Shown in pieces: positions 1,808 to 60,293 of a stretch of 64,000 bases of DNA. This DNA comes from an uncultured Latescibacterota bacterium (GTDB lineage Bacteria > Latescibacterota > UBA2968). The notes beneath the pieces are model-generated. The model was given only the letters and a program-made list of their open reading frames with translations. It made no database searches and was not told where the DNA came from. The stretch's first letter is position 1, and each line of letters begins with the position of its first letter. The DNA lies in the NCBI GenBank assembly GCA_958295785.1, contig OY282377.1:5334896-5398895 (forward strand), in the 5' to 3' direction. The translations under genes and the position numbers were made by a program.

Positions 1808-2011
1808 TGCATTTCCCTTGGTGTAATCCGCGTTAGCGGGTTATGATACGCCTGCCTGTTGATGCTGTCAATCTGATAAGACACTTGAGTTTATCGAGAG
1901 TTCCACAGCCAAACGAGTCTGAAACCCGGTATTCTTCGCCACAATCTCATTGGAACTGCCCGCAACGAGACAACGGTTTGTCAAGATGTGCCTTTTACGG
2001 AGGGAACGGTT

Positions 2012-22500: not shown

Positions 22501-25139
22501 GCAATTTGGATTCCGGGGGCGTGGATACCCTGTTCATGGCGGCATTGCCTCCGTTTGGCACGCGCGACAGCATAACGGTGCTGTGGCGTCTCGAAAATCG
22601 CGGCGGGCGTCACGCCTTAGAGGCTGTGGTCGATCCGCGCAACGCGATTGCGGAAGGCGATGAATCGAATAACCGCGCCACCATTGAGGTCGATGTACTC
22701 GGCACGCTGGGCGCTGTGCCCTTCGCGCTCTGGCCCAGCCAGACCGTCGCGGATGTGGTCTTGGGCGTGCGATCTGCGGAAGACAAGCGCGATTTCACCG
22801 GCGAATTTGAGATAAGCGCGTCTGGCGATTTTCGCGCCGCCGATGCCCTGCGCTCGGGCCGTGTGCCCGCTTCTGATGGCGCGATTTTGTGGCGCCCGAC
22901 CGGTTTGCGCGAGGGGTCTTATTTTTGGCGCGCCCGATTGTCCGACGGGCAAACAACAGGCCCCTGGTCGGATGTGCGGCATTTTGTGGTGGCGGCCTCT
23001 GTGCCCGAGCGGCAAGTCGTGTGGCGGCAAGATGGCGCGGTTGCCCTATCGCGCGGTCGGGGCGAAGATGTGATCGCGTTCGACGACAATTCCGTGGGGC
23101 GCACCTTGTCGCCACCGCCGATCCGCTTCAATGCTGCCGAGGCGTCTTTTTCCGCACAGGGCGTGGCAGGAGCGGGCGTTTTGTGTTCGGATGGGACTTA
23201 TTTGTATGTAAAGCGTTTTTACACGGCGCGAAATCTCTACCCCGGCGGGGATTTGTTCGCGCGCATTGGCACGGGGTTCAACGGCACAGTGGCCGGGCAA
23301 AATTACGGGTTGGTGACAGAGATGCCGATTCAAAGCATTTCCGCGACCTTTCACAGCGATGGGTTTATTTATTCCGAACACAGCGATGCCCAATCGATCT
23401 TGCGGATTTCGCCCGTTACCGGACAGGTCGATACCGTGGAAGTGCCCGCCGGATTGCTGGATTTGCTTCGCGGCTTGCCCTTTGATTCCCATGCGTTGAT
23501 CACCTCTGATGGCGAGTTTATTTACAATGTGTCCGCAGGAGTCAATGGCCTGCGGCGCGCCGGGTGGACCGTGCGCGTGTTTGACCCGGCCAAGGCGTGG
23601 CGCGTGGTGCGCCAATTCACTGTGGAACCCACGGAAACCGGATTTGGCTATTTGTTCACCAATGGCGCCATAGCCGACGGGCGGTTTGTCTATTTGATCG
23701 AGTTTGGCACGGGGCTAACGCATCGCGTGCGCGTGGTGGATGCCCACACCGGCGCGTTTGTCGAAGAATTTGAAAGCGATCAGGTGCAGACAGATATTTT
23801 GGGCGGGCAATACGATTGGGTGAACAATGTGGTGTGGCTGGGGCAGTTGCGCGGGGGTGCGGTGTATCGCTATGCGGGCCGTGGCTTGCCCGAATTTGGC
23901 ACGCTGACCTCTGCGGCCATTGGCCCGTCGAGCGCGTGGCACACCGCAGCGATAGCCGTATCGGGCGCGGGCAGGGCCGAGGTGACCGTGTTGGGCGAGG
24001 TTGAGGCCGATACTTTCGCGCCATTGCCGCAATGGCAAAATTTGCCGCCCGGCGCGATTGACTTGCGCGGTGTGTCCAGCCCGCACTTGAAATTGCAGAT
24101 CAGATTGTTCGGCGAGGGCTTGAACCGATCTCCGGCCTTGCAGACGTGGACCGCGACTTACCAACCGCTTTCGGATATCGGCCTGGGCAATTTGCGGGCC
24201 GAACCGCCCGAAGTCGAGGAATTGCAACCCGTACACCTGCACCTCGATGTGCAAAACCGAGGGCCGCTCAACTCGGCGTTGGGCGCGTCCGTCGCCTTTT
24301 ACAGCGGGCCGCCCGAATCCGGGCGTTTGATCGGACGCGCGCCCGTGCCCGAAGACGCGCCCCTCGGTCAAGTGTTCCCGATGCGCTGGGCGTGGCAAAC
24401 CGCGCAGTGGGCCGGGCAACACATTGTGACAGCGCGGTTGGAAAACGCGCAGGGACAACCCGTGTTTTCGGGCCGACAGGTGATAGCCAAAGACCCCGTG
24501 CGGATTTTACGCAGTTCTGACCGGGATGTGCCCTTCATTGAAATCGCTGCCCTCGACGCGCTGGGCGAGGTGCGCGCTGAGGATTATTTGCCGTCCGCGC
24601 CTGCTTTTCGCATTGCCATGCGCGACACCGCGGGCATTGATTTGTCGAGCCTTCGCCTGTCGCTCACAGACGAGGTTCAGTACGAATCGGAACACATCAC
24701 AGACCGCGCGGTCACACCCACGACCCTGTCCTTTGTCTATGCGCCGCCCGCGCTCGCCGACGGTTCGTATACGCTCGACGTCTCGGCCTCCGACAGGCTG
24801 GGGAATGGCCCTGCCAAAGCCGCGCTATCCTTCCGCGTGTCTTCAATATTGTCGATAGAACAACCCCTGGTCGCGCCCAATCCCGTGTCTGACACTGGCC
24901 ATTTTACCTTTGTTTTGTCGCAGCCATCAGGAGTCACCGTGCGGGTTTATACCCTCGCTGGTCGCCTCGTTCAGGTGCTTGAAGAACCCTTTGCCCGCGC
25001 CGGATACAATCAGATTTTTTGGGACGGACGAGACGCCGATGGGCACATCCTAAGCAACAACACGTATTTGTACACCGTAACCGCAGACAATGGCGAATCG
25101 CAGGCGCGAGTCAGGGACAAGCTGATTGTGTATCGGTGA
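19521..25139 (+). CDS. Giant secreted gingipain-like (peptidase C25) protein with C-terminal sorting/FlgD-like domain
   Basis: The protein has 1872 residues. A signal peptide (MVFRHWVVALLMGVGVVQAG) precedes a propeptide-like region and a C25 caspase-fold domain at about 590-960. The catalytic His810 lies in NFIGHGSAAS and Cys849 in FIGMSCLNGLYWD. A CARDB-like Ig domain (about 950-1055), a WD/propeller-like middle part, more Ig-like domains and a C-terminal FlgD-type module (VTVRVYTLAGRLVQVL ... YNQIFWDGRDADG) follow. In Bacteroidetes this architecture belongs to type IX secretion substrates and PorU-like sortases. No Por gene is in the window. GGATCAA precedes the ATG. Confidence 0.88.
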   Translation: MVFRHWVVALLMGVGVVQAGEVRMVATGENWVEVVVSEADIVPTQSSFANVLHRPGAPAVPVRGAILGMPFGSRAVVQVVDADYEEFGGIDVMPVPQIQWLGSEEHPFSRAVYDRDAAIYQRPGFYPGAEAVIAHTGVLRDQQVAVLSLRPVQYDPVQRRLRVARHLRVRVQFVAGATRPAVRPVRETDGFAPIYQRGLLNAEQARKWRGQRVGAPKRTRDWYDPTATHYKIRIFEDGLYRLDARWFAESGIALSDLDRLQMFSNGEEIPLLIEDGGDGALDAGEGVVFWATFRRAPDRDFESEYGKEHIYFLRVGRESGLRYTHVNGAPVNNAPEISHFWSRKHVEIDSTFEALGHARNAARDHWFWRRTASPSRAGDPPVDVVMPIPLPGLRREAGGNAQIRTGMHSLTLNQNIDPDHYAVIRIQDGPIIAEARWDGQDAHLATGTAPVSALSDTTHIALQTPGDPSFPLEPIPYVDHVFLNWVEITYPRRFEATDGALRFSLDTAPSRRAISIANFDAARIWVLNLDAREIIDQVQVDGNLHATFEIVEQGDFVAVDESALKRPALGERDTPANLRGFSGAEYLIISGADFMDAAEQLAAHRRARGLSALAVDVADVYDEFSFGQVDAEAIRRFVQYGFRSWAKRPVHVLLFGRFSFDYRNVFGQTRVARRNAVPGMPFQSPNRGLAFTDEFFGRIDRDLFMDVFVGRFSISRVSQANAVVQKVIDYDETPPAQWRDRVLLMANWDADDPRKFIGTSDSLATFTEAIGLENFKVHHDENTPPEPNASSREVIRQINEGRLVVNFIGHGSAASISKFFAGTFQQGAFNYMSQIQNRERLPLFIGMSCLNGLYWDSRIISLAEEMTNKRDGGAIAYISASSLAFIRINNELNLALFQHTFQNGVLAFGQSLALAKMTELAVLPSSELGLVTMNLIGDPAQQIALPSGPDLVVENIQLGRQGELSTADSVRVTLRVGNWGLTPARNVDVVLIDRNLDSGGVDTLFMAALPPFGTRDSITVLWRLENRGGRHALEAVVDPRNAIAEGDESNNRATIEVDVLGTLGAVPFALWPSQTVADVVLGVRSAEDKRDFTGEFEISASGDFRAADALRSGRVPASDGAILWRPTGLREGSYFWRARLSDGQTTGPWSDVRHFVVAASVPERQVVWRQDGAVALSRGRGEDVIAFDDNSVGRTLSPPPIRFNAAEASFSAQGVAGAGVLCSDGTYLYVKRFYTARNLYPGGDLFARIGTGFNGTVAGQNYGLVTEMPIQSISATFHSDGFIYSEHSDAQSILRISPVTGQVDTVEVPAGLLDLLRGLPFDSHALITSDGEFIYNVSAGVNGLRRAGWTVRVFDPAKAWRVVRQFTVEPTETGFGYLFTNGAIADGRFVYLIEFGTGLTHRVRVVDAHTGAFVEEFESDQVQTDILGGQYDWVNNVVWLGQLRGGAVYRYAGRGLPEFGTLTSAAIGPSSAWHTAAIAVSGAGRAEVTVLGEVEADTFAPLPQWQNLPPGAIDLRGVSSPHLKLQIRLFGEGLNRSPALQTWTATYQPLSDIGLGNLRAEPPEVEELQPVHLHLDVQNRGPLNSALGASVAFYSGPPESGRLIGRAPVPEDAPLGQVFPMRWAWQTAQWAGQHIVTARLENAQGQPVFSGRQVIAKDPVRILRSSDRDVPFIEIAALDALGEVRAEDYLPSAPAFRIAMRDTAGIDLSSLRLSLTDEVQYESEHITDRAVTPTTLSFVYAPPALADGSYTLDVSASDRLGNGPAKAALSFRVSSILSIEQPLVAPNPVSDTGHFTFVLSQPSGVTVRVYTLAGRLVQVLEEPFARAGYNQIFWDGRDADGHILSNNTYLYTVTADNGESQARVRDKLIVYR

Positions 25140-26939: not shown

Positions 26940-29504
26940 TTATTTTTCTTTTATGGTGCCTCGAAGATTGCTACCTAGAACCCTTCCCTGCCATTCGACA
27001 TTACATGAAAGTGTGTTGGCGCTTGTGCTGATGACACCTGATAGTATGATGTTGCGGGATTGCCCCGCCGACATGCTAGATATTTGTTCAGAATCCACAA
27101 AACTGTTGTTCGCATAGCCGGTGATTATTAAACTTCGCACTTCCCTATGTGCTCGAAGAGTGACGTCTATTCTGACAGACACAGCCCCCCCCTGACTATC
27201 TCTTGAGCCTGAACAGTTCGTAATTGATCCCGTAATCGCATCACCCACCCCACTGCCACCACCGCTACCACTGCTCACCGTGACGCTCACGCCATCCGAG
27301 CAGTTGTTGTTTGTATTGCTCTCCCCGCTGACGCTTGCCACGCACGCGCCGTAGTAATACGTGCCAGAACTCGATGGGGCAGTCAGGCTGATCGACTCAG
27401 AACTGGTGCCAGAAGCCGAAAGCCCGCTGACCGAATCCGTGCCGACTTGCGTATCGCTCGTGGAGATCGTGGAATTGGACGAGCGGTAATAGCGCAGGGT
27501 CGTCGAGGCTGACCGTCCCGTACCCGAGTTGCGAACCGTGGCACGCAGGGTAAAGGATTGCCCGGTTGTCAGCGTGTTGTCGCTGACCGAAGGCGATTGA
27601 ACAATCAGGTCGGGACGACCAAAACGCGCATGAAGGGTATAGCTTCCAGTTACTCTTGAATGAAGCCCTTTGACTTCAACATAATACGTGCCCGCACTCA
27701 CGGCGCGTGCGATGCTGAAATTCCTGCCATCCCCATCATCGTCATCATTTTCCAAAGCGGAACCGGAACTGTTTTGTAGCGTACCATAAGTATCGATGTT
27801 GCCTGTGGTGTAAACCGTCAAGGTACCAGAAGTGCTGACTTGCACCCTGAAGTAATCAACATCGCCACCGGTTTCTATCTGCCCTGAGCGTGAGCCACCC
27901 AAAGAAAGACTGGTCGCGCCAGATCGGGTATTGCTGTGATCATCTCTCACAAAACGCGCATGAAGGGTATAGCTTCCAGTTACTCCTGAATGAAGCCCTT
28001 TGACTTCAACATAATATGTGCCCGCACTCACGGCGCGTGCGATGCTGAAATTCCTGCCATCCCCATCATCGTCATCATTTTCCAAAGCGGAACCGGAACT
28101 GTTTTGTAGCGTACCATAAGTATCGATGTTGCCTGTGGTGTAAACCGTCAAGGTACCAGAAGTGCTGACTTGCACCCTAAAGTAATCAACATCGCCACCG
28201 GTTTCTATCTGTCCTGAGCGTGAGCTACCCAAAGAAAGACTGGTCGCACCAGATCGGGTATTGCTGTGATCATCTCTGCCACCACCGCTACCACTGCTCA
28301 CCGTGACGCGCACGCCGGTTGAGCAGTTGTTATTGGAATTGCTCTCGCCGCTGACGCTTGCCACGCACGCGCCGTAGTAATACGTCCCCGCACTCGAAGG
28401 CGCTCTCAGGCTGATTGACTCAGAACTGGTCGCCGAAGCCGAAAGCCCGCTGACCGAATCCGTGCCGACTTCTGTATCGCTTGTCGAGATCGACGAATTG
28501 GACGAACGGTAATAGCGCAAGGTCGTCGCGGCAACCGAACCCGTGCCCGAGTTGCGAACCGTCGCACGCAGGGTGAAGGATTGCCCGGTCGTCAGCGTAT
28601 TGTCGCTGACCGAAGGCGATTCAACGATCAGGTCGGAACGACTACTGCCCCCGCCAGGAGGCGATACTGGGCCACCATAACTGCCGGCAAAACTGAGAAA
28701 ATCAGAAAAGTCTATCGCGCCATCGCCATTCAAATCATACCTAGCTTGGTATCTGCTATCCCCGCGGCTTGACCCATACTGCCCTGCAAACGCCAAAAAG
28801 TCGGAAAAGCCAACTGTGCCATCGCCATCAAAATCCGGCGTCCGGGCAGTCGTCGCATTAAACTCGATTCGGTTTGTCGTGGTGAGCACATCTCTCGAGG
28901 TCGTGCTTTCAGAAAGCGTCACCGACGCAATGCCAATGGAAAATTCCCTGCCCGTGACATTGGTCGCTGTGGTGAACTCTGCCCGTGTTAGAAAACCCGA
29001 CGAACCCAAGTTGACCGGCGAAGTCCCCGCGAAGTCTGTGCCCGTCGGTTGTGGCAGGTTAAAGACAAACGCGCTGTTTTCGGCTTTGACAAAGGTCAGC
29101 ACAGACGCATCAAAGTCAAAGCGGATTTGCATGCCGACCAAAGAGGTGGTCACGCCGGTTGCGAAAACTTCAATGGCAATGGTCGTGCCCCGTCCAGACA
29201 CGGTGCCCGAGGTCACGCCATCATTTCGCCGATTGCCCGACCCGCCATTGGGAATCAAATCCAGCGACAGCGTCGCATTGGCATTGGCGCCTGCGGCAAC
29301 TTTGGCGCGCTGTATCGCGTCATCCGAACGCTCTGCTTCTGCCTCGTCCTCGGCGATTTTCGCACGCAGGTCAGAACTCGGGGCAGATTCCCCAGGGGTC
29401 GCGCCCGCATTGACATCGGGTTCAGCAGCGGCCTGATCGCCCACAAAGACCAGCACGGTCAGTGCGGTCATCAACAAGCCTATTGCCACAATCCGTTTAC
29501 GCAT
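26940..29504 (-). CDS. Secreted multidomain surface protein: cohesin-like, dockerin-type, CARDB and PPC domains
   Basis: The protein has 854 residues. A signal peptide (MRKRIVAIGLLMTALTVLVF) is followed by an Ala/Glu-rich linker, a cohesin-like beta domain (about 75-210; FDASVLTFVKAENSAF), two Asp-rich repeats (DFDGDGTVGFSDFLAFAGQY, DLNGDGAIDFSDFLSFAGSY), CARDB domain 1, two nearly identical pre-peptidase C-terminal (PPC) domains, CARDB domain 2 and a final unassigned domain. No catalytic residues are recognised, so a binding or structural role on the cell surface or in the matrix is likely. AAAGGAG before the ATG at 29504 decides the start over a frame 52 codons longer. Confidence 0.82.
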   Translation of the reverse strand: MRKRIVAIGLLMTALTVLVFVGDQAAAEPDVNAGATPGESAPSSDLRAKIAEDEAEAERSDDAIQRAKVAAGANANATLSLDLIPNGGSGNRRNDGVTSGTVSGRGTTIAIEVFATGVTTSLVGMQIRFDFDASVLTFVKAENSAFVFNLPQPTGTDFAGTSPVNLGSSGFLTRAEFTTATNVTGREFSIGIASVTLSESTTSRDVLTTTNRIEFNATTARTPDFDGDGTVGFSDFLAFAGQYGSSRGDSRYQARYDLNGDGAIDFSDFLSFAGSYGGPVSPPGGGSSRSDLIVESPSVSDNTLTTGQSFTLRATVRNSGTGSVAATTLRYYRSSNSSISTSDTEVGTDSVSGLSASATSSESISLRAPSSAGTYYYGACVASVSGESNSNNNCSTGVRVTVSSGSGGGRDDHSNTRSGATSLSLGSSRSGQIETGGDVDYFRVQVSTSGTLTVYTTGNIDTYGTLQNSSGSALENDDDDGDGRNFSIARAVSAGTYYVEVKGLHSGVTGSYTLHARFVRDDHSNTRSGATSLSLGGSRSGQIETGGDVDYFRVQVSTSGTLTVYTTGNIDTYGTLQNSSGSALENDDDDGDGRNFSIARAVSAGTYYVEVKGLHSRVTGSYTLHARFGRPDLIVQSPSVSDNTLTTGQSFTLRATVRNSGTGRSASTTLRYYRSSNSTISTSDTQVGTDSVSGLSASGTSSESISLTAPSSSGTYYYGACVASVSGESNTNNNCSDGVSVTVSSGSGGGSGVGDAITGSITNCSGSRDSQGGAVSVRIDVTLRAHREVRSLIITGYANNSFVDSEQISSMSAGQSRNIILSGVISTSANTLSCNVEWQGRVLGSNLRGTIKEK
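27621..28280. repeat. In-gene tandem duplication of a 330-bp PPC-domain unit
   Basis: Units 27621-27950 and 27951-28280 have the same length (110 codons) and differ at only a handful of positions. Near-identity at synonymous sites points to a recent duplication or gene conversion. The two flanking CARDB domains (about 27260-27610 and 28281-28640) are similar but more diverged. Confidence 0.9.
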
Positions 29505-29701
29505 AACTATCTCCTTTGCGTTGGGAATACAGGGGGAAATCTCACGAGCAGATGGAGGTCTTGACGAGAGACAATATATAACCTGCCGAAAATAAAAAAA
29601 CAAAAAAACCGAATGCCACAATACAGTGACACGCGGTTGATTTTCGGATAGACCGACCAAATGCCACAGGCGGCCTACTTGAAAATTCCGGTAATAATAC
29701 C

Positions 29702-47783: not shown

Positions 47784-49961
47784 CTAAAAAAAATACACCT
47801 TGTAATTCAACCGCACATTGCGACCGGGTTCTGGCATGACGGAGCGGATGCGCGACAGGTGGTTGCGGTATTCGCGGTTGAAAAGGTTGTGGACCGAGAG
47901 CATTGCATTGTGCCGGGTGTGGGCGGTTTGGAAGTCGCGTTGTAAGAATGCGCCCAAGACGATGTAGCGATCCGTTGGGGTTTCGTACGTATCCACGCGC
48001 GTTTGCTTCGCGGCAAACTCGGCGGTCACTCCCAGCGCGAAAAAGGGAAAGCGATAGGCCACTTCGGCATTGAGTTTGAGCGGGGGCATTTCCGGCAGGG
48101 GCAGGCGATCATCCCGGTTTTGACCGCGCACATAGCTGCTGTTCAATTCCAAATTGAACCGCGCATCGGGCCGCCAGCCCACCTGCATTTCCGCGCCCAA
48201 AAATCGCGCGGCGATCCCATCGGCGGCGTAGATCGGCAAGAGTTGGGCAAAATTGATCTCCCCGGTATTGCGCGGGGCAATATAGGTGTCAAATTCATTC
48301 CAATAGCCGCTTAGGACAAAATCAAAGCCCGCTTGCAAATAGGAGAAAAACACTTCCACCCCCAAGCTCGTTTCCGCGTCGAGATCGACATTGCCCACCT
48401 CATACGTGTACGCGGCCAGGTGCGGGCCCTCGTTGTAGAGTTCTTCAATGGTGGGCACGCGCTGCGACCGGCTCAGGCTGAGGCCAGCATGCAACCCGTC
48501 GGACAGGGCCACGAGCGGGCTGATGGCCGCAGACCAGGTGTGAAAGGTGCGATCCACATCCGTGCCCACGCGGGTTTGGATATTGGGGCGCGGATCGAAA
48601 TTGGCATACATGTAGCGGGCCGCGGTTTGAAGTTCGAGTTGGCGATAGGTCCATTCGCGGTAAAGGCCGATGGTCGCGCTGTGCTTGCGCGTGGGTGGGG
48701 TGAAAACATACGCCCCCAGCTTGAGATCGTGGTGGTCAAAGCCGAGCGCGAGCGCGGTCTTGCGATTGGGGCCGAAATGCAACTTCAGATCGGCATTGTA
48801 ATTGTGAAACAGAAATTCCGAACCAATGTTGCCGCTGGATTCGTATTCAAAATGGTGATAGAAGGTTCTGGTAAAACTCGCTTCGACCTCATTGATCGCC
48901 GCGTGGTCAAGGGTGTACGCGGCCTTGCCGTCAAACACGCGGCGCAAAATATCCAAATCCGCGCCATTGGGATGCGCGCCGATAAAGCCGCCGGGTATGC
49001 CGTATTCGGTGTCGAATTGGTCATAAGACGCGCCGATATAGCCCCTGTGCGTGGGGTATGACAGGCCGAGCGTGTACGTGCGCGTGTCAATGGGTGTGTT
49101 GTCCAGTTTGCCAACGGGCGTTAGCATATCCCGCGTATCGCGGTACGTGGTTTCGGCGTACAGCGCGAGCGGGCCAATAGGCGTTGTTATTGACGCGGCG
49201 GAGAGATAGCCCCGATTGACTGTTTCTCCATACGCCCCCGCGCTGCCGGAAACGCGCTGCGGATGGACTTTGGGGATTTTGTGTTTGACCGCATTGATCA
49301 CGCCGCCAATGGCAGACGCGCTGTAGAGCAAAGTGCGCGGCCCTCGGATGATTTCGAGGCGGTGGATGCCAAATAGTTCCAGCGCGACCGCGTGATCCGC
49401 AGATGTGGCAGACAAATCGCGTGTGCGAATCCCATCCAAGTTGATCTGCACGCGGTCCCCACTCAGGCCGCGAATGACCGGGCGTGCGGACGCAGGCCCC
49501 ATGCTGCGAATGGCAACGCCCATTTCGCTCTTGATCGTTTCGGCAAGCGTGAGGCCGTATTTCTTTTTTAGTTCGTCTCCCTCGGTGATTTCGCGGAGTG
49601 CTTCAAAGCGGGTTTCGGCATTTTTTCCGACCACGTCGAGCGTATCCATCTCGATTTCCCACGCGGTCATTGCTATGTACAAGATGGGCATTTTCGCGTC
49701 GGAAACCGCGACTTCCCTGCGCGCTGTGCGGTAGCCAATGCGCGAAAAGGAGAGGTCGTGCGTGCCCGGGGGCAAGCGCAAGACAAACCGGCCCTGTTCA
49801 TCGCTCGTCGCGCCCACTGCGTCCGCATCCCATTTGATATTGACATTTTCAATCGTGCGTTGGGTTGCGCGATCAAACACATAGCCTTCGAGCAACACGG
49901 CCCCATCCGCCGCGCCGAGCGCGAGAATGCAGAATAGGGGAAAGAGGAGGGTCAATTTCAC
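47784..49961 (-). CDS. TonB-dependent outer-membrane receptor (probable metal uptake)
   Basis: The protein has about 725 residues. It has a signal peptide (MKLTLLFPLFCILALGAADG, read from GTG), a carboxypeptidase-regulatory-like N-terminal domain (VLLEGYVFDRATQRTIENVN), a plug domain (GVAIRSMGPASARPVIRGLS, DRVQINLDGIRT) and a C-terminal barrel ending NYKVYFF with a terminal aromatic. His-rich barrel segments (TFYHHFEYES, GFDHHDLKLG) and the two small upstream proteins point to a metal ion such as Zn, as in ZnuD-type receptors; this is inference. The start is uncertain: a longer frame overlaps the lipoprotein gene. Confidence 0.88.
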   Translation of the reverse strand: MKLTLLFPLFCILALGAADGAVLLEGYVFDRATQRTIENVNIKWDADAVGATSDEQGRFVLRLPPGTHDLSFSRIGYRTARREVAVSDAKMPILYIAMTAWEIEMDTLDVVGKNAETRFEALREITEGDELKKKYGLTLAETIKSEMGVAIRSMGPASARPVIRGLSGDRVQINLDGIRTRDLSATSADHAVALELFGIHRLEIIRGPRTLLYSASAIGGVINAVKHKIPKVHPQRVSGSAGAYGETVNRGYLSAASITTPIGPLALYAETTYRDTRDMLTPVGKLDNTPIDTRTYTLGLSYPTHRGYIGASYDQFDTEYGIPGGFIGAHPNGADLDILRRVFDGKAAYTLDHAAINEVEASFTRTFYHHFEYESSGNIGSEFLFHNYNADLKLHFGPNRKTALALGFDHHDLKLGAYVFTPPTRKHSATIGLYREWTYRQLELQTAARYMYANFDPRPNIQTRVGTDVDRTFHTWSAAISPLVALSDGLHAGLSLSRSQRVPTIEELYNEGPHLAAYTYEVGNVDLDAETSLGVEVFFSYLQAGFDFVLSGYWNEFDTYIAPRNTGEINFAQLLPIYAADGIAARFLGAEMQVGWRPDARFNLELNSSYVRGQNRDDRLPLPEMPPLKLNAEVAYRFPFFALGVTAEFAAKQTRVDTYETPTDRYIVLGAFLQRDFQTAHTRHNAMLSVHNLFNREYRNHLSRIRSVMPEPGRNVRLNYKVYFF

Positions 49962-50037
49962 AATGGACTCTTTATGAAACAAATGGACGGAATAGCAAAG
50001 CCATCCCGTCCAAAGCCATGTGGTGTGCGTGCGTTGC

Positions 50038-50505
50038 TTATGGCGCGACATGCACGGGAAGGGGCACTGTGCGGAAGTCTGCGTGGCCATCGTGGTTGAG
50101 CAACAGTCTCATGGTGGTCTCTCCTGCTTTGAGGCCGCGCAGGTGAAATTCAAACTTGCCTTCGTCCCCGGGATCTTGGACGACTTCGACTATGCTGGTA
50201 TCGGCGATGTCCCAGCCAAGGGTGTAGTCGGGATCATTCGGGGGGTCGATTTCATTGCCATTTCCGTCCAAAAATTTGACGCTCCAATGGGCGGTCAGGC
50301 CAATAGGTGATTGGAGGTGATCCATCCGGCCACCACCGGCATCAATTTGCCCCTGAAAATAGCGAAAGAACCGATTGCCGGAGTCAATGAGGACCAATCC
50401 CTCGGCTTCGAAATGTTCTTCCTGCGAGGACACGGGATCATCACTGCCACAGCCGACCGCAAACAGGGCCAGCACTGCCAAGAGGTATTGCAATCTAAAA
50501 AACAT
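50038..50505 (-). CDS. Lipoprotein partner of the TonB receptor
   Basis: The protein has 155 residues. MFFRLQYLLAVLALFAVGCG is a lipoprotein signal with lipobox AVGC followed by SDDP. The mature part is beta-rich and contains HWSVKFLDGNGNEI, LGWDIADTSIVEVV, LRGLKAGETTMRLLLNHDG and a terminal HADFRTVPLPVHV. Several His residues could bind metal. It directly precedes the TonB receptor (about 76 bases) and follows the His/Cys-rich gene, so the three are probably one operon. AGGAG precedes the ATG. Confidence 0.78.
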   Translation of the reverse strand: MFFRLQYLLAVLALFAVGCGSDDPVSSQEEHFEAEGLVLIDSGNRFFRYFQGQIDAGGGRMDHLQSPIGLTAHWSVKFLDGNGNEIDPPNDPDYTLGWDIADTSIVEVVQDPGDEGKFEFHLRGLKAGETTMRLLLNHDGHADFRTVPLPVHVAP

Positions 50506-51958: not shown

Positions 51959-53023
51959 CTAAAACGCCTGACTCGCGTTTTTGCGATGTAGGATGAAGCC
52001 GATCACAATGGGCGCGCCAATCAGGGATGTCACCGCATTGAGGGGCAAGGCATAAGGGCTGCCCGGCAAATGGGCAATCAGATCGGCCAACAGCGCCAGC
52101 GTCGCGCCCAAGCAGGTAACGGCGGGCATCAATGCGCGATGGTCGGATGTGTGCAACAGGCTGCGGCAAAGATGGGGCACGGCCAGGCCTAAAAACGCAA
52201 TCGGCCCGCAAAACGCCGTGGTCGCGCCTGCCAAAATGGATGCGTTGACCAAGACCCACACGCGGGCGCGTTTGACATTCAACCCCATGCTGCGGGCGTA
52301 ATTTTCCCCGAGCAACAGCGCGTTGAGCGGCTTGACACACAAAAACGCCAGCAAAAGGCCCAGGAAAATCGCCGCCGTGAACACGGGCATTTGCCGCCAT
52401 GTCACGCTGCCAAAACTCCCAAACGTCCACAAAATATACGATTGGATTTGTTCGGGAATGGCAAAATAAATCAGAATGCTGACAAAGGCCCCGGTCGCAT
52501 ACCCAAACATCAGGCCCAGAATGAGCAGGGTCATCGCGCTTTGCACCCGGGCGGAAATGAGCAACACGCACCCGAACACGGCCCCTGCGCCCAAGCTGGC
52601 AGCGGCGACCAAACTCAGATCGCCCAAAAGGCCCAAGCCAGCGATGAGCACGCCGCCGACCGATCCCACAGTCAGCACCACAATAGCAACGCCCAAGCTG
52701 GCACCCGCATTGATGCCCAGCACAAAGGGATCGGCCAAGGGATTGCGAAAAAGCGTTTGCATCTGCAACCCGCTCACCGAAAGCGCGGTGCCAGCCAGCA
52801 CAGCGGTCAGGGCTTTGGGCAGGCGAATGGTGTGAACAATAATCGCCCAGGCGGGAACAGACGCATCGCCGCCTGCGAGAATGCCCAGCAGATCGCCCAA
52901 CGGAATGCGAACCGACCCGAGGGACAAACTCAAACCGAACGCGATCAAGAGCAGCAGAAATAACCCGAGCGCGACAATGCGCCGAGACATCCTCTGCGTT
53001 TTATGTTCTATTGGTAGGGACAT
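51959..53023 (-). CDS. btuC: BtuC/FecCD-type ABC importer permease (cobalamin uptake)
   Basis: The protein has 354 residues with about 10 TM helices. Family landmarks are SVRIPLGDLLGIL, HTIRLPKALTAVLAGTALSV, GLQMQTLFRNPLADPFVLGI and, near the end, GPIAFLGLAVPHLCRSLL in the loop that contacts the ATPase. It forms the inner-membrane channel for cobalamin or siderophores; the riboswitch operon assigns it to cobalamin. The ATG at 53023 is chosen, though MSRR at 52990 has a slightly better ribosome site. It is the last gene of the operon, 140 bases after btuD. Confidence 0.9.
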   Translation of the reverse strand: MSLPIEHKTQRMSRRIVALGLFLLLLIAFGLSLSLGSVRIPLGDLLGILAGGDASVPAWAIIVHTIRLPKALTAVLAGTALSVSGLQMQTLFRNPLADPFVLGINAGASLGVAIVVLTVGSVGGVLIAGLGLLGDLSLVAAASLGAGAVFGCVLLISARVQSAMTLLILGLMFGYATGAFVSILIYFAIPEQIQSYILWTFGSFGSVTWRQMPVFTAAIFLGLLLAFLCVKPLNALLLGENYARSMGLNVKRARVWVLVNASILAGATTAFCGPIAFLGLAVPHLCRSLLHTSDHRALMPAVTCLGATLALLADLIAHLPGSPYALPLNAVTSLIGAPIVIGFILHRKNASQAF

Positions 53024-53088
53024 GGCGATGTGTGGGGTTAGGATCAAGGGTCAGGGGTCAGTCCCCGCCCTGTTAGGAAAAAATAAAA

Positions 53089-53163: not shown

Positions 53164-54186
53164 TCAATCCCGATTCAGACCCCCCAGCGACGCGATCAAT
53201 TCGTAAATGGACGGGCATTCTCGAATCGCGCCATCGCGCTCTACGCGCCAAGAGCGGGGCTCGCCTTCCCGTATTTCGATGTGGCAAGCCGATTCTGCAT
53301 CTGTCACGCGAAACCCGGCGCGTTCGAGTGCGTGCTTGGTCCAATAAGCGGCTCGCCCCTGTCCCGAAACCGAAATAGCGGAACGCCCGAGGTGCGCGTT
53401 GAGCACAAACGCGCCCGTATCCGCGTCAAAACGCGCGCCCTCGCTTTGGAACGCGCCTTCATAAGCCCCGTTGAGAATCAGATCTTCGGGCGCGCCGGTT
53501 TGCAGCGCGCCATCCATGGGCAGAAGACATAAGCGGTCTGCACAGCGCAAGGCCAAGGCCAAGTCGTGTGTGGAGAGCAGGATCGCTTTGCCGGTGGCGT
53601 GTGCGAGATTTCGCAACAAGGCCATGATTTCCACGCGGCGGGGCAGGTCGAGAAAAGCCGTGGGTTCATCCAGAATCAGAAGGTCGGGCTGTTGCGCCAG
53701 GGCGCGGGCGATCAGGACTTTTTGACGCTCTCCATCGCTGAGTTCGGCCACATTGCGATGCGCGAGATGCGCCGCGCCCGCGGCCCGAAGCGCCCATAAA
53801 ACGGCCTGTTCATCTTCATCTGTCAGGCGTCCGATCCAATTGGTATGGGGGTATCGCCCCAAAGCGACCAAATCGCGTGCCGACACAATGCCGATGCCGA
53901 TGCGGTCTGTGAGCACCACGCTGAGCATGCGCGCCACTTCGGTTGCAGACAGATCCGCGAGGGCTTTGCCCATGAGACAGACCCGGCCATTGAGCGGCGG
54001 TTGCATGCCCGCAAGCGTGCGTATCAGCGTGGATTTGCCCGCGCCGTTGGGCCCGAGCAAACACACAAATTCACCGCGCTCGAGCGACATATTTATTTTG
54101 CAGGCCACAACGCGACGCGGGCGAAGGTAGCCCACAGCGAGATTTTGGGTTATGAGAACGGGGTCTTTCACGGGTTGTATTTCCAT
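53164..54186 (-). CDS. btuD: BtuD/FecE-type ABC importer ATPase with C-terminal extension
   Basis: The protein has 340 residues. Walker A is LGPNGAGKSTLIRTL, the Q-loop region follows, the signature is AELSDGERQKVLIARAL, Walker B is LLILDEPTAFLDL, and the H-loop is LLSTHDLAL. About 90 residues follow the ABC domain (from VLNAHLGRSAIS to IYELIASLGG), longer than E. coli BtuD, with an ACT-like beta pattern; their role is unknown. It powers BtuC. A TTG start overlapping cobO is possible; the ATG at 54186 is preferred for family alignment. Confidence 0.9.
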   Translation of the reverse strand: MEIQPVKDPVLITQNLAVGYLRPRRVVACKINMSLERGEFVCLLGPNGAGKSTLIRTLAGMQPPLNGRVCLMGKALADLSATEVARMLSVVLTDRIGIGIVSARDLVALGRYPHTNWIGRLTDEDEQAVLWALRAAGAAHLAHRNVAELSDGERQKVLIARALAQQPDLLILDEPTAFLDLPRRVEIMALLRNLAHATGKAILLSTHDLALALRCADRLCLLPMDGALQTGAPEDLILNGAYEGAFQSEGARFDADTGAFVLNAHLGRSAISVSGQGRAAYWTKHALERAGFRVTDAESACHIEIREGEPRSWRVERDGAIRECPSIYELIASLGGLNRD

Positions 54187-54238
54187 TGCAAAAACAAAAT
54201 CGCCAGACCCGTTGCGAGGTTTTGGAACTCGTCCATTG

Positions 54239-54793
54239 TCAAAAATCAATCCCCGGCTGGGCGACGATGTCCTGATCGCGAAACGGATGCTTGATCTCCC
54301 GCATCTCGGTCACCAAATCGGCATGGGCGATCAACGCTTCGGGCGCGTTTCGGCCCGTAATAATCACATGCAACATCTCGGGCTTGTTCTCGCGCAGCCA
54401 GTCCACGACCTCTGTCGCATTCAACCAGCCAAAATCCATCAAATACGTGAACTCGTCCAAAATAAACAGATCGTATTCCCCGCTCGCAATGCGCGCCTGA
54501 GCCAGTTCCCAACCGCGCAATGCCCGCGCCTGCGTTTCGCGGATATCCTTGCTCTGCCACGTCCATCCATCCCCCGTGCCCATCCAGTCAATTGCCATGC
54601 GTTTGGCTGCGCGAATTTCGCCAAAATTGGCGTTCTCGTGCTTCAAAAACTGAATCACCCCCACGCGCATCTTGCGGCCCCATGCGCGCGTCATCACCCC
54701 CAGCGCGGCTGTGGTCTTGCCCTTGCCATCGCCGGTATTGACAATCACCAGTCCCTTTTTGACGTGCTGCTTGCGCCTTTGCTCTCGGCTCAT
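54239..54793 (-). CDS. cobO: Cob(I)yrinic acid a,c-diamide adenosyltransferase
   Basis: The protein has 184 residues. The P-loop [19 protein letters not shown] is the CobO/BtuR/CobA signature; [33 protein letters not shown] and [20 protein letters not shown] follow the family. It transfers adenosyl from ATP to Co(I) corrinoids, making the coenzyme form. In the B12 uptake operon it completes salvage of imported cobalamin. AGGAGG precedes the ATG; the stop abuts the btuD region. Confidence 0.96.
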
Positions 54794-54896: not shown

Positions 54897-56138
54897 CTAT
54901 TCGTTGAAAGCGGAAACAAAAATCAGAAAATCGGGAAAATCAACCGCGCCATTGCCATTGAGATCAAACATCGCGTCAAAATCCCCATCGCTCGCGGTTT
55001 TGCCAAACGCGCCGACAAACGCCATAAAGTCGCCAAAATCAACCACGCAATCGCCATCAAAATCCGCAGCACTGCCCACAAATGCAATATCCGAAGGCGG
55101 CAGCCCAGTGCTGATGGGACCGGCGACGAGTTGATCGGTATGCACATCGAAAATTTTCACACCGGCAGATGCGGGATCGGTAAAACTGCCTTGGTCCAAA
55201 ACATATAACCGGCCGGCAAACGCGCCCAAACCGGGGACGAACCCGCCCGAAAGTCCCTCCAAACGCGGGGACACAGACCGCGTCGCCAAATCGAAGCGTT
55301 TGACCATATTGGCGAAATTTGCATCTGTGACAACGACATACCCCTCGCTGTTGGAAACCATTGCCAGAGAACTCAAATTGCCGCCCAAAGCCATCTCGCC
55401 AAGCGCGATGCCCTCGCTTCTCAAATTTGCCAGATCGATCACTTCGATCCCTCCATCCGTCAAGTCCGCAAACGTATTGACATGGCTCAATATCCACTTG
55501 TTGCCGCGTTGCGCCGCGCCTACGGGATTCTTGCCCGCCATTGCAATCCCCTGCACGCCCGCCGCGTTCTCATCCACATCCACCACCTGATCGGTTGCCA
55601 CATCGACGACCGCAATCGCCGAGGCATCTGTCGGCACCCAGTCATTGTCTCGATCCAGACGCTGACACGCGACAAACAGGCGATTGCCGTACAGCGCGAG
55701 TTGAAACATCTCGGGCAAGCCATCCGCATCGGCAAATCCCGCCAGATCGACCGCGCCGAGCGAATCGCCCGTCACTGGATTGACAATCAGCAATTGCGTG
55801 CGTCCATACCGCGAAATATACGCTTTGCCCTCGCTGACAAACGCCATATCACTCGGATTGCTGCCATTGCCAGTCGAATACTGCGTCACGGGCGTTTTCA
55901 AATCGCCGCTGTGCAGAACGATCACATTGTCCTGTCCCCGCCGGTTGATCACATACACCTCGTCCCGATAAACGCGCACCACGGCATCGGAGTGAATCGT
56001 CAGGTGATCGCGGGTTGCGACATGCGTCTGCAAATCCAAACGCGACAGGCTACCACTATTGTAATCCGTCGTGGTGACAACCGCCTGATTTGCCAGTACA
56101 TCTGTCGCAAAAAATAAAACAACCAAAAACCGCTTCAT
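54897..56138 (-). CDS. Secreted beta-propeller in the cobalamin operon (BtuG-like candidate) with C-terminal dockerin-type repeats
   Basis: The protein has 413 residues. After a signal peptide (MKRFLVVLFFATDVLANQ), repeated blades run to about residue 345 (YVINRRGQDNVIVLHSG, AYISRYGRTQLLIVNP, LFVACQRL, YVVVTDANFANMVKRFD, LYVLDQGSF). Two Asp-rich repeats end the protein: DFDGDCVVDFGDFMAFVGAF and DLNGNGAVDFPDFLIFVSAF. In Bacteroides, BtuG surface propellers bind cobalamin and pass it to BtuB; position between btuB and cobO under a B12 riboswitch suggests the same role here, but no lipobox is present and homology to BtuG cannot be checked by eye. GGAGG precedes the ATG. Confidence 0.78.
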   Translation of the reverse strand: MKRFLVVLFFATDVLANQAVVTTTDYNSGSLSRLDLQTHVATRDHLTIHSDAVVRVYRDEVYVINRRGQDNVIVLHSGDLKTPVTQYSTGNGSNPSDMAFVSEGKAYISRYGRTQLLIVNPVTGDSLGAVDLAGFADADGLPEMFQLALYGNRLFVACQRLDRDNDWVPTDASAIAVVDVATDQVVDVDENAAGVQGIAMAGKNPVGAAQRGNKWILSHVNTFADLTDGGIEVIDLANLRSEGIALGEMALGGNLSSLAMVSNSEGYVVVTDANFANMVKRFDLATRSVSPRLEGLSGGFVPGLGAFAGRLYVLDQGSFTDPASAGVKIFDVHTDQLVAGPISTGLPPSDIAFVGSAADFDGDCVVDFGDFMAFVGAFGKTASDGDFDAMFDLNGNGAVDFPDFLIFVSAFNE

Positions 56139-56464
56139 TGCATCCTCCTTAGATAAAATTGACGAATCAGTGTATTCGTCGATTTGGACAGGCACGGGGG
56201 CCTGTCCCTACGGGTCTTATACGCAAGGGACCTGTCCCTATGGGTCTTATACCAAGGGGCCTGTCCCTATATCTGCTTCTATCTGCGTCCATCTGTGGAT
56301 ACGCTCACAAATTCATTGCATCCTCCTTAGATAAAATTGACGAATCAGTGTATTCGTCGATTTGGACAGGCACGGGGGCCTGTCCCTACGGGTCTTATAC
56401 GCAAGGGACCTGTCCCTATATCTGCTTCTATCTGCGTCCATCTGTGGATATGCTCACAAAAAAC
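56134..56464. repeat. Imperfect tandem duplication of the btuB-propeller junction
   Basis: Unit 1 (56134-56311) and unit 2 (56312-56464) share TTCATTGCATCCTCCTTAG, the hairpin GACGAATCAGTGTATTCGTC, palindromic repeat cores ending CCTGTCCCTA, and ATCTGTGGAT(A/C)...GCTCACAAA. Unit 1 has one extra CCTGTCCCTA block of about 29 bases. Unit 2 contains the last ten codons of btuB; unit 1 contains the ribosome site and start codon of the propeller gene. Confidence 0.85.
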
Positions 56465-58614
56465 GCCCGTCCCGGCAGGGGATAGCCCCAGGTGTCGGCG
56501 ATTTGTGAACCGCTCAAATTTTTGGCCTCCAACCCAATGCGAAATCGCTTTCCCACCGCTATTTTTACGCCCGCATTGTGAATGTGCCGCGCGGTTGATG
56601 GGCGGCGATTGGCGCGGTCGAGAAAATTGCCATCTTCAAACGTGTAATCGCAAAAAACCGTGCAGCGGCCCAGTCGCGTCGTGACGCGGGCAAAAAGCGC
56701 GTGGGGCGGGCGGTTGGGCAAGGTATTGCCGCTTAGATGGGGGATAGCGGATTTGTCTTTGGCGCGTTGAAACGTGTAGTTGCCCGACAGATTGACGCGA
56801 GAACCCAAGCGTTTTTGTGCGGTGATTTCAAGCCCATGCACACGCGCTTTGCCGATGTTGACCGGGCGCGACGTGGCTTGTGACGTGTGGACAAATTGGA
56901 TCAAATTTTCATAGCGATGGTCAAAATACGCGCCCTCTAGCGCGGTCGTCTCGCCCGCATAACGCAGACCCGCGTCCCATGTGTGCCCGCGCTCGGGCAT
57001 GAGGTTGACATTGCCGATCACGCCGCCGCGGTCGCCAAAAAGTTCGTAAAAAGAGGGCACTCTGAACACGCGCCCGGCATTGGCTTTGAGCATCGTGTTG
57101 GAGGTCAGGTCCAAACGCACGCCCGACCGCAGGCTGGTCAGATGGCGCGTATTGGCTGAATCGGGCGCGAGCGGCGAAAAATTGAAGGGGTTGGCGCCGG
57201 TGAACGAACTGTGGATGCGGCGTTGTTCCACGCCGAAAGACCATAAGCCGATATTGTGCGGCAGCGAGAGGTCCAAGCGCGTGCGTGCAGACGCGATCCA
57301 CCGCCGACTGTCGAACAAATTGGCGCTGGTGCCGATGCGTGCCGTGGGCAAATAAGTCTCTCTGTGCAAGCCAACCACAGCCGCAATATCACAGCGCGAA
57401 AAGAGATCGGTTTGCAGCCGACTTTGCCATCCGTACGTGCGCGTGCGGTAATCGTTGTCTTGGCGGCCAATCCCGATTTCGCCCTCCAAGTCCCGAAACC
57501 GCTCTTTGGTATGGGTAAAATAAAGCGATTGGCGCAGGGTCACGCCGCGCAACAGGGCGCGATCTCTGTATGCAATTTCGGTAAAGGTTCGGAAGGCGTC
57601 TAGTTGTGCATGTTGCGATTGGTTATTGCCAATGCCGGGGATGCCCTGGCGTTTCCAATACGCGGTTTCTTGGATGGACAGGGTTCTATGCGGTCCGAAC
57701 GCACGCCGCCATTTGCCCAAAAAATTGACCGATTGGTGGGCGTTGTTCTGCCGATTGCGCCACGCATCGTCATCGGCATTGTATTCGGTGCCATTGTCGT
57801 CGAGGAATCCAAAATCGTTGTCGCTGTGTGCGTAATCGGTCACAAATAAAAATTGCGACTGCCCAACCCCGCCTGTGATCGCGCCGCTGAGTGCTCGCGT
57901 GTCAAACGACCCCCACGATCCGTGAATCCCGTGCGACCACTGCTTGTCGGTTGGGCGCGTACGCACATGCACCGCGCCGCCCAAGCCATTGCCACCTGCA
58001 CCGCGATAGATTTCAATTTGCCCGACGTGCGCGAGCGGCAGGTTGCTGAGATCCACGCCCCCGCCAAACGCGGCATTGAGCAACATGCCGTCGAGATAGA
58101 CTTTGACTTGAGCCGCTGATGACCCGCGCAGGGAAATCGCGCTGAACGCGCCCAATCCACCGAGGCGTTTGACCTGCACGCCTACGGCCTCGGCCAATAC
58201 ATCGGGCAATGAGGTTTCTCGGCCTTCAAAATGTTCGCGGGTGATCACGGTCGCATACGCCGGATGCCTGTGAATGTCGCCCGCCCCGATGGGATCCGCG
58301 ATGACCGAGAGTTCGTCGAGCGGAAGCGTTTTGGGGAAAAGCGCGATCAAAAGTTCGGTGGTTTCGGTCGTGCGAACCGTGCGCTCGGCCGGGTCGTAGG
58401 CCACATGGGATAGGGCGAGGGTGTAAGAGCCGGGCGGCAGATCGAAAAAGGAAAAGCGTCCCTCCTCATCCGTCTGAGTCGCAAACTCGGCATTGAGCAC
58501 GCGAACACTCGCATTTGCGAGGGGCATCAGGGTCTCTGCATCAACGACCCGCCCGACGATCTGCGCAGCCCAAAGCGGCGTGTTCAAGCAGAGAAAAAAA
58601 ATGATATAGCGCAT
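56428..58614 (-). CDS. btuB: TonB-dependent cobalamin receptor (BtuB-like)
   Basis: The protein has 728 residues. It has a signal peptide (MRYIIFFLCLNTPLWA), a carboxypeptidase-regulatory-like domain (IVGRVVDAETLMPLANASVR), a plug (SLPDVLAEAVGVQVKRLGGL, AISLRGSSAAQVKVYLDGML) and a 22-strand-type barrel with a late FRVPSFYELFGDRGG, a motif seen in BtuB-like and siderophore receptors. It imports a large ligand across the outer membrane using TonB energy. Its position under a cobalamin riboswitch gives the substrate. Its last ten codons lie in the duplicated junction block, and a BtuF-like gene precedes it. Confidence 0.9.
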   Translation of the reverse strand: MRYIIFFLCLNTPLWAAQIVGRVVDAETLMPLANASVRVLNAEFATQTDEEGRFSFFDLPPGSYTLALSHVAYDPAERTVRTTETTELLIALFPKTLPLDELSVIADPIGAGDIHRHPAYATVITREHFEGRETSLPDVLAEAVGVQVKRLGGLGAFSAISLRGSSAAQVKVYLDGMLLNAAFGGGVDLSNLPLAHVGQIEIYRGAGGNGLGGAVHVRTRPTDKQWSHGIHGSWGSFDTRALSGAITGGVGQSQFLFVTDYAHSDNDFGFLDDNGTEYNADDDAWRNRQNNAHQSVNFLGKWRRAFGPHRTLSIQETAYWKRQGIPGIGNNQSQHAQLDAFRTFTEIAYRDRALLRGVTLRQSLYFTHTKERFRDLEGEIGIGRQDNDYRTRTYGWQSRLQTDLFSRCDIAAVVGLHRETYLPTARIGTSANLFDSRRWIASARTRLDLSLPHNIGLWSFGVEQRRIHSSFTGANPFNFSPLAPDSANTRHLTSLRSGVRLDLTSNTMLKANAGRVFRVPSFYELFGDRGGVIGNVNLMPERGHTWDAGLRYAGETTALEGAYFDHRYENLIQFVHTSQATSRPVNIGKARVHGLEITAQKRLGSRVNLSGNYTFQRAKDKSAIPHLSGNTLPNRPPHALFARVTTRLGRCTVFCDYTFEDGNFLDRANRRPSTARHIHNAGVKIAVGKRFRIGLEAKNLSGSQIADTWGYPLPGRAFFVSISTDGRR

Positions 58615-58715: not shown

Positions 58716-59876
58716 TTACGGATCGAGTTTTCGATAGTATTTGAGTTGGTGGTCTGGCAACAAGTTGGGATGTAGAATTTTGATGATGTCCGCCAAGAGC
58801 ACATCGGGTTCCATCAGCCCGGTTTCCCAATAGTCATTGCCGCCGTATTTGTTGAGCCGCGCATTGGCGTTGAAAATTTGCCCGGTTTTGAAGGCGGAGA
58901 ATTTTTTGTACCGCTCGTCCGCAGCCACCACATCGCTTCGAGACAACCACGCATTTTGCATGGTGATCCAGCAGTCCGCATCGTGCGCTTTTTCGTACAC
59001 CGTTTCAAAATCGAGCGATAAACTCTGTTGCGAATCGTCGTCTGCCCACAGGTAATTCGCACCCGCGTCTTTGAGCAGTTGCGCGGCGTACGTCTTGCCG
59101 CCAGACATAAACCATGTGCCGCGCCAGAGCGATCCGACAAAAACCGATGGTCGCGCGTCCGCCGGCAAATGTTGCGTCAACGCGCTACGCGCCTCATAGC
59201 GGACGACCAAGTTGTCAAATTGGGCAGATGCCAGTTCTTCTTTGTCAAAAAACGCGGCGACAAATTTGATCCACTCGGCGCGCCCAAGCAAAGAGGGTTC
59301 GGCATACGCGGCGTTCACGACAACGGACACGCCACCTTCTTGAAGCGCGAGATGGGCGTTGTCGGGCGCGTCTGTGATCACGAGATCGGGTTGGAGCACC
59401 AAAACTTTCTCCAGATCGATGGACATGCCCCGCCCAACTTCGGCCAATTCGCCCGCTGCAAAACGACTGTGAATGGCCTCTGAATTGACGTATTTGATGT
59501 TGTCTATCGCAACGAGACGCTCGAGTTCGCCGAGCTTTTCGATATGCGGCAAATGCGTGGTGGATGTCGCAATCAGGGTTCGCACGGGAATTTCAATACG
59601 CGGAACGCCTTCGTATCTATCGGGCGGCGCTTGCCCGCGCTGTATCAGAATATAGCGGAACGGTTCTTCTGCACCCGGTCGGGTCACGGTGACGACCTTG
59701 TAAGCGTCAAAATAATCCACCCGGAAACCGCGTGCATAGTGCAAATCCACTCGCGCTTGAATGGGCACAACCGCGCCCCAAACCGCGATACAGCACAGAA
59801 ATCGCATCCATCTTTTTGCCTTCAACACGGCGTTCACCTTTCGTTTTTTTCGAGTGGGCACGAGAGCACCAGTCAT
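58716..59876 (-). CDS. btuF: Periplasmic cobalamin-binding protein (BtuF-like)
   Basis: The protein has up to 386 residues. A signal peptide (MRFLCCIAVWGAVVPIQA) lies about 23 residues in, so the start may be the ATG at 59807. The body is the two-lobed helical-backbone binding protein (periplasmic binding fold III): IATSTTHLPHIEKLGELERL, LVLQPDLVITDAPDN, PSVFVGSLWRGTWFMSGGKT, YAAQLLKDAGANYLWADD. It delivers ligand to BtuCD. It is the first gene after the riboswitch terminator. Confidence 0.87.
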   Translation of the reverse strand: MTGALVPTRKKRKVNAVLKAKRWMRFLCCIAVWGAVVPIQARVDLHYARGFRVDYFDAYKVVTVTRPGAEEPFRYILIQRGQAPPDRYEGVPRIEIPVRTLIATSTTHLPHIEKLGELERLVAIDNIKYVNSEAIHSRFAAGELAEVGRGMSIDLEKVLVLQPDLVITDAPDNAHLALQEGGVSVVVNAAYAEPSLLGRAEWIKFVAAFFDKEELASAQFDNLVVRYEARSALTQHLPADARPSVFVGSLWRGTWFMSGGKTYAAQLLKDAGANYLWADDDSQQSLSLDFETVYEKAHDADCWITMQNAWLSRSDVVAADERYKKFSAFKTGQIFNANARLNKYGGNDYWETGLMEPDVLLADIIKILHPNLLPDHQLKYYRKLDP

Positions 59877-60104: not shown

Positions 60105-60111
60105 AATAAGG

Positions 60112-60270
60112 TCTGAGATTCAGGCAGGTCTTCTGGCTTCTGGAGCATCGCTTCTCGCGCCTTCCCAGCTTTTTGCCAGTGGCACACAATGCGAGAAACA
60201 TCTCCAGTTACAGCGGCGGGACCGCAACGGATTTTCACCGTTTTCCCTATTTGGCGACCTGAATCCGAGA
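60112..60270 (-). promoter_or_regulatory. Cobalamin riboswitch aptamer
   Basis: On the transcript strand the conserved elements occur in order: P1 strand GGATTCAGG, GGGAAAACGGTGAAAATCCG, then GGTCCCGCCGCTGTAACTGG, GCCACTGG(CAAAAAGC), GAAGCCAGAAGACCTGCC and closing P1 strand CCTGAATCT. This is the B12-box architecture of AdoCbl-type riboswitches. It sits between rpmB and btuF and must control the B12 operon. GGGTTGTCATAACCC just upstream is a small hairpin ending the rpmB unit. Confidence 0.95.
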
Positions 60271-60293
60271 GGGTTATGACAACCCGAGTTGTG

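Follow-up and report, generated by a model that had tools for sequence, protein, structure and literature searches.

The DNA analysed here (the window) is a stretch of 64,000 nucleotides from a Latescibacterota bacterium whose genome consists of one contig of 5.66 Mb. The minus strand of the window carries a cobalamin operon with the order riboswitch, btuF, btuB, propeller gene, cobO, btuD and btuC from 5' to 3', all on the same strand. The features are:

60106–60277, minus strand: cobalamin riboswitch aptamer (RF00174), the first element of the operon (Rfam, 109.7 bits; gathering threshold 31.5)
58716–59876, minus strand: BtuF-like periplasmic cobalamin-binding protein (PF01497 Peripla_BP_2, 3.3e-23)
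56428–58614, minus strand: BtuB-like TonB-dependent receptor (PF00593, PF07715 and an N-terminal CarboxypepD_reg)
56144–56149, minus strand: Shine-Dalgarno sequence AGGAGG ahead of the propeller ATG (sequence)
54897–56138, minus strand: gene for a BtuG-like propeller with a dockerin-like tail (open reading frame, 413 aa)
56091–56138, minus strand: signal peptide, residues 1–16, without a lipobox Cys (sequence; predicted cleavage site)
55077–56090, minus strand: seven-bladed β-propeller domain, residues 17–354 (AlphaFold, sequence profile and fold)
54900–55073, minus strand: dockerin-like pair of F-hand repeats, residues 356–413 (PF00404, profile match to 2y3n_B, helices)
54239–54793, minus strand: CobO/BtuR corrinoid adenosyltransferase (PF02572, 1.2e-61)
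53164–54249, minus strand: BtuD-like ABC ATPase (PF00005, 1.6e-28)
51959–53047, minus strand: BtuC-like FecCD permease (PF01032, 8.2e-74)

An earlier note on this DNA had placed the propeller gene between btuB and cobO under B12 control. Both the riboswitch, which is the sole copy in the host genome at the threshold used, and the Pfam matches of the neighbouring genes agree with this. The BtuB-like receptor stays below the TIGR01779 equivalog cut-off (144 bits vs 599.7); its best matches in the PDB include the E. coli BtuB structures (∼6e-20) as well as Bacteroides BtuB. The N-terminal of the propeller protein is a short signal peptide (MKRFLVVLFFATDVLA, presumably cleaved before NQ) without any Cys, and neither a lipobox nor a surface-lipoprotein export signal was found in this region.

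The gap between btuB and the propeller gene (56134–56419) contains a perfect 108-bp direct repeat with a spacing of 178, by which the propeller Shine-Dalgarno sequence and leader are copied. At 47784–50505 (minus strand) a second TonB receptor adjoins a 155-aa lipoprotein without a Pfam match, a pair that is kept in some relatives (L054 and L061).

Kinship with BtuG and linkage to B12 genes

Pfam propeller models gave no match over cut-off for the single window protein. A profile built from 22 orthologues (alignment A1) and searched against the PDB had nine distinct BtuG sequences on top (1e-10 to 7e-10), followed by the next match at 0.012; the BtuG match spans positions 89–201 only, about one third of the propeller. 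Sequence identity to BtuG is only 15–19%. Using an AlphaFold model built from 75 orthologues (mean pLDDT 92.3, pTM 0.88), the best 16 Foldseek chains were all BtuG1/2/3 or close homologues (3e-17 to 2.5e-14), and alignment with VIA-align gave a Z of 32.5 and an rmsd of 2.7 over 302 residues for BtuG1/2/3, compared to a Z of 29.8 for the first non-BtuG structure. The strand order of the model gives seven blades with velcro closure, like BtuG2. The window propeller is a BtuG homologue; the earlier note had called it BtuG-like from the propeller pattern and gene context.

Residues conserved among the orthologues are concentrated in the d-a/b-c loops on one face of the propeller (Mann-Whitney p = 2.7e-4), and the mean net charge of the family is -12 on this loop face vs -5 on the remaining loops. 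The corrinoid-binding face of BtuG2 is negatively charged, and Trp194, Tyr239, Trp272, Tyr316 and Tyr335 are residues of BtuG2 named in the same study (PMC10404256). Because of the low identity and the partial span of the profile match, ligand contacts are beyond residue-level mapping and the conservation applies at the level of the face. Judged by conservation and charge only, nothing was seen that departs from a BtuG-like face. This acidic conserved face is the predicted basis for corrinoid binding, and the propeller would form a complex with BtuB.

The window protein thus shares a homologous seven-bladed propeller, a conserved acidic face and a gene that adjoins btuB under a cobalamin riboswitch with BtuG1/2/3 of Bacteroides (BT1490, BT1954 and BT2095), which are lids of BtuB. 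Unlike these, it comes from a different phylum, lacks a lipobox and has a C-terminal dockerin-like pair.

The propeller is one conserved orthologue that was found in 52 of 60 relatives, and its linkage to B12 genes was kept in most of the loci surveyed. A cobalamin riboswitch lies upstream on the same strand, 2.3–4.8 kb away, in 43 of the 55 Latescibacterota copies, and the copies without one are mostly contig edges or second copies. The same upstream, same-strand arrangement was seen at all 12 loci checked beyond the main Latescibacterota set. Among 80 named loci from several phyla, btuB is located directly 5' of the propeller gene in 76 and 3' of it in one, while the remaining three comprise two contig edges and one locus (L145) with 1.7 kb without btuB. 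Besides Latescibacterota, loci with propeller and btuB are labelled Krumholzibacteriota, Eisenbacteria, Fermentibacteria and Deltaproteobacteria, and many of them come from non-gut samples. The paper that named BtuG in 2018 considered it exclusive to Bacteroidetes after searching 313 gut genomes, and tied its origin to gut competition (PMC6143338). No extension of BtuG to Latescibacterota or the other phyla seen here was found in the literature searched by title and abstract. A 761-aa propeller protein of a Gammaproteobacteria MAG (L157) had an unusually high profile score and is possibly a double propeller.

The dockerin-like tail and its counterparts in other clades

The tail consists of 58 residues with two F-hand loops, DFDGDCVVDFGD and DLNGNGAVDFPD, in which positions 1, 3, 5, 9, and 12 are acidic or Asn, and helices are predicted by AlphaFold for residues 368–377 and 401–410. 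The isolated tail passes PF00404 Dockerin_1 with 25.8 bits (cut-off 22.9), while the full-length window protein comes out slightly under it with 21.0 bits. In the PDB, the tail profile best matched the cellulosomal dockerin 2y3n_B over its full length (1.3e-12); this is the dockerin of a GH48 from Bacteroides cellulosolvens. The combination of two dockerin-type repeats with a missing lipobox, as first read from the sequence, is confirmed.

Two F-hand calcium loops, helices and an inter-repeat linker are shared between the tail and this cellulosomal type I dockerin. Classic type I dockerins use a Ser-Thr/Lys-Arg recognition code, whereas both repeats of the tail have F10 and D12-F13, i.e., a conserved F-x-D-F in place of Ser-Thr behind each loop. 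The tail also differs in being carried by a vitamin-capture protein in a genome with hardly any cohesins, and in belonging to a module that occurs at N-terminal and internal positions as well. In the literature searched, Latescibacter and dockerin were found together only in a fungal microbiome study.

The module is found 57–66 times in the host genome and is thus a genome-wide module that is not peculiar to B12. As it is this frequent, and as the propeller orthologue is present in most of the relatives, the tail and the propeller are real beyond chance. Among 56 host copies examined for placement, 31 sit at the C-terminus, 7 at the N-terminus right after the signal peptide and 18 within the chain. 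Such flexible placement shows the module to be a domain and does not fit a mere replacement for a C-terminal sorting signal, and a strict C-terminal secretion signal is ruled out by the 7/56 copies behind a signal peptide and the 18/56 internal ones.

A YncE-like propeller protein at 494–1840 (minus strand) of the window has its dockerin-like pair at the N-terminus behind the signal peptide, and has a paralogue with the same start in L184.

The anchor of the propeller orthologues differs between clades. In three GTDB families (f1–f3) they end in a dockerin-like tail, while a T9SS type A CTD or a similar FlgD-like domain closes those of f4, f5, f6, f8, Krumholzibacteriota and many Eisenbacteria. 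The orthologues of f7 and many Deltaproteobacteria are tailless, several of them with a lipobox; a lipobox was seen on L085, L120, L126, L130, L133, L155, and L156. The T9SS type A CTD (TIGR04183) was absent when sought on the window protein. On the propeller tree the three tail states require at least six changes in all, of which the dockerin state requires two, and at least four changes, concerning the CTD and no-tail labels, are forced by well-supported branches. A single origin of the dockerin tail would still be compatible with the tree.

Sortase and tail exchange across genomes

Numbers of CTDs and dockerin-like modules were compared in 25 genomes. Genomes of f1–f3 have 27–125 dockerin-like modules and 8–24 CTDs, those of f4 have 4–26 modules and from 73 to at least 150 CTDs, and the other families have 0–3 modules and 30–136 CTDs. 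One protein bears both module and CTD, which also speaks against a simple replacement of the one by the other. SprA and PorV-family proteins are present in all genomes compared. The canonical sortase PorU was over cut-off in 0 of 22 f1–f3 genomes vs 32 of 35 others, and the three genomes outside f1–f3 without a match are 75–87% complete. GldM/PorM (TIGR03517) had no match in any genome, and as this includes the CTD-rich ones, the model is uninformative on the T9SS motor.

Most f1–f3 genomes retain a longer PorU-like C25 protein. In the window this is found at 19521–25139 (plus strand), where a 1872-aa C25-family PorU/PorU2-like protein ends in a FlgD-like CTD; it is below both the PorU and the PorU2 cut-off of NCBIfam and represents the best PorU-like match left in the host genome. 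PorU adjoins PorV in the CTD genomes, while in the host genome the position of PorU is occupied by an M6-like protein that itself carries a CTD. In L206 (4014–7040, minus strand) an M6-like inactivated metalloprotease with a CTD lies beside PorV, where relatives carry PorU.

When 53 dockerin-bearing host proteins were compared with 85 proteins from CTD-rich relatives that bear a CTD, four protein families emerged in which CTD and dockerin are swapped at the matching position. These are the BtuG-like propeller (51% over 336 residues), a matrixin-YncE protein (37% over 717 residues), a DUF6055-like protein (37% over 426 residues) and an Ig-repeat protein (34% over 267 residues). The tail and the CTD are thus alike in their position on orthologues of the propeller and three other protein families, but the fold of the CTD (FlgD-like Ig) is unrelated to that of the tail. 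As the dockerin-like module stands where relatives bear a CTD, a role in surface attachment is suggested. Loss of PorU and the change of tail may have been one event, in which case the correlation is suggestive and does not amount to many independent observations or to proof. Latescibacter was not found in connection with type IX secretion in the literature searched.

Proposed surface attachment of the propeller and alternative explanations

The protein is probably a BtuG-type corrinoid lid for BtuB, held on the surface by a dockerin-like pair that replaces a lipid or CTD anchor. With canonical PorU absent from f1–f3, where CTDs are few and dockerins many, and with four families exchanged, the tail is most readily understood as a replacement module for surface attachment. 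Points that speak against this account are the low identity to BtuG, with a profile match over a third of the propeller, the N-terminal and internal copies of the module, and the longer PorU-like protein that is retained. The propeller would be made when the riboswitch senses low B12, and would leave the cell by the Sec route. Its acidic face might then take up corrinoids at the outer surface and pass them on to BtuB, BtuF and BtuCD, after which CobO would adenosylate the imported corrinoid. The calcium-binding dockerin-like pair would keep the propeller at the surface, a task served by a lipid in Bacteroides BtuG and by the CTD in sister families. In the lineage without canonical PorU, several exported proteins appear to have exchanged their CTD for the dockerin-like module. 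We can only tentatively extend this to a branch-wide scheme, in which dockerin-like modules replaced the CTD as a general, non-cellulosomal surface-display tag with a receptor of its own and with the BtuB lid among its cargo.

Attachment by a non-lipid route, as the earlier note had suggested, is backed by the missing lipobox and the dockerin-like tail, but docking to the cohesin-like protein at 26940–29504 did not hold up. In this protein (locus to 29660, minus strand) a cohesin-like domain is immediately followed by a dockerin-like pair and then by CARDB and PPC. The protein scores 16.5 bits with the Pfam Cohesin model (cut-off 24.1), and the best solved cohesin in a profile search of its domain against the PDB has an E of 0.085; an AlphaFold model of the single sequence was too poor to use (pLDDT 35). 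Classical docking of the tail into the cohesins of this or another host surface protein fits the dockerin profile of the tail, the real cohesins on some Latescibacterota proteins and the cohesin-like domains that many host proteins have ahead of dockerin-like pairs. But the host genome has only two PF00963 cohesin matches with an E of at most 1e-3, one of them over cut-off, for its many dockerin-like modules, and cohesin-like and dockerin-like units adjoin in one chain instead of being separate partners, which makes this explanation quite improbable. About 10 host paralogues of the 26940–29660 protein have the same start and other C-terminal repeats (LRR, YWTD-like and others).

A somewhat better, but still unlikely, explanation is that the propeller binds corrinoids while the tail serves as a calcium-stabilised cap or for oligomerisation, so that the protein would be shed or held only loosely and act as a secreted B12 scavenger. 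The varied placement of the module, the few cohesins available as receivers and the departure of F10 and D12-F13 from the generally known Ser-Thr/Lys-Arg code would all agree with this. Yet the tail is found exactly at the CTD position of relatives in four families and orthologues elsewhere are lipid-anchored, both of which point to attachment, and a working lid has to remain with its receptor. Least credible of all is a generic YncE/DUF5074-type propeller that has a different function despite its place in the B12 operon, e.g., for another ligand, haem or a metal. The window protein has no Pfam propeller match over cut-off, and the siderophore binder XusB and other propellers have the same fold, but BtuG structures come first by both sequence profile and fold, and the btuB adjacency and cobalamin riboswitch are nearly invariant across phyla.

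As lid-receptor pairs with a riboswitch are found in non-Bacteroidetes phyla, at many loci from non-gut samples, surface capture of B12 may be older or more widespread than thought. The lineage would also represent a natural experiment in how surface protein display is kept up without canonical PorU. Since one conserved protein appears to use a lipid, a T9SS domain or a dockerin-like tail as its anchor in different clades, the role of non-cellulosomal dockerins becomes directly testable.
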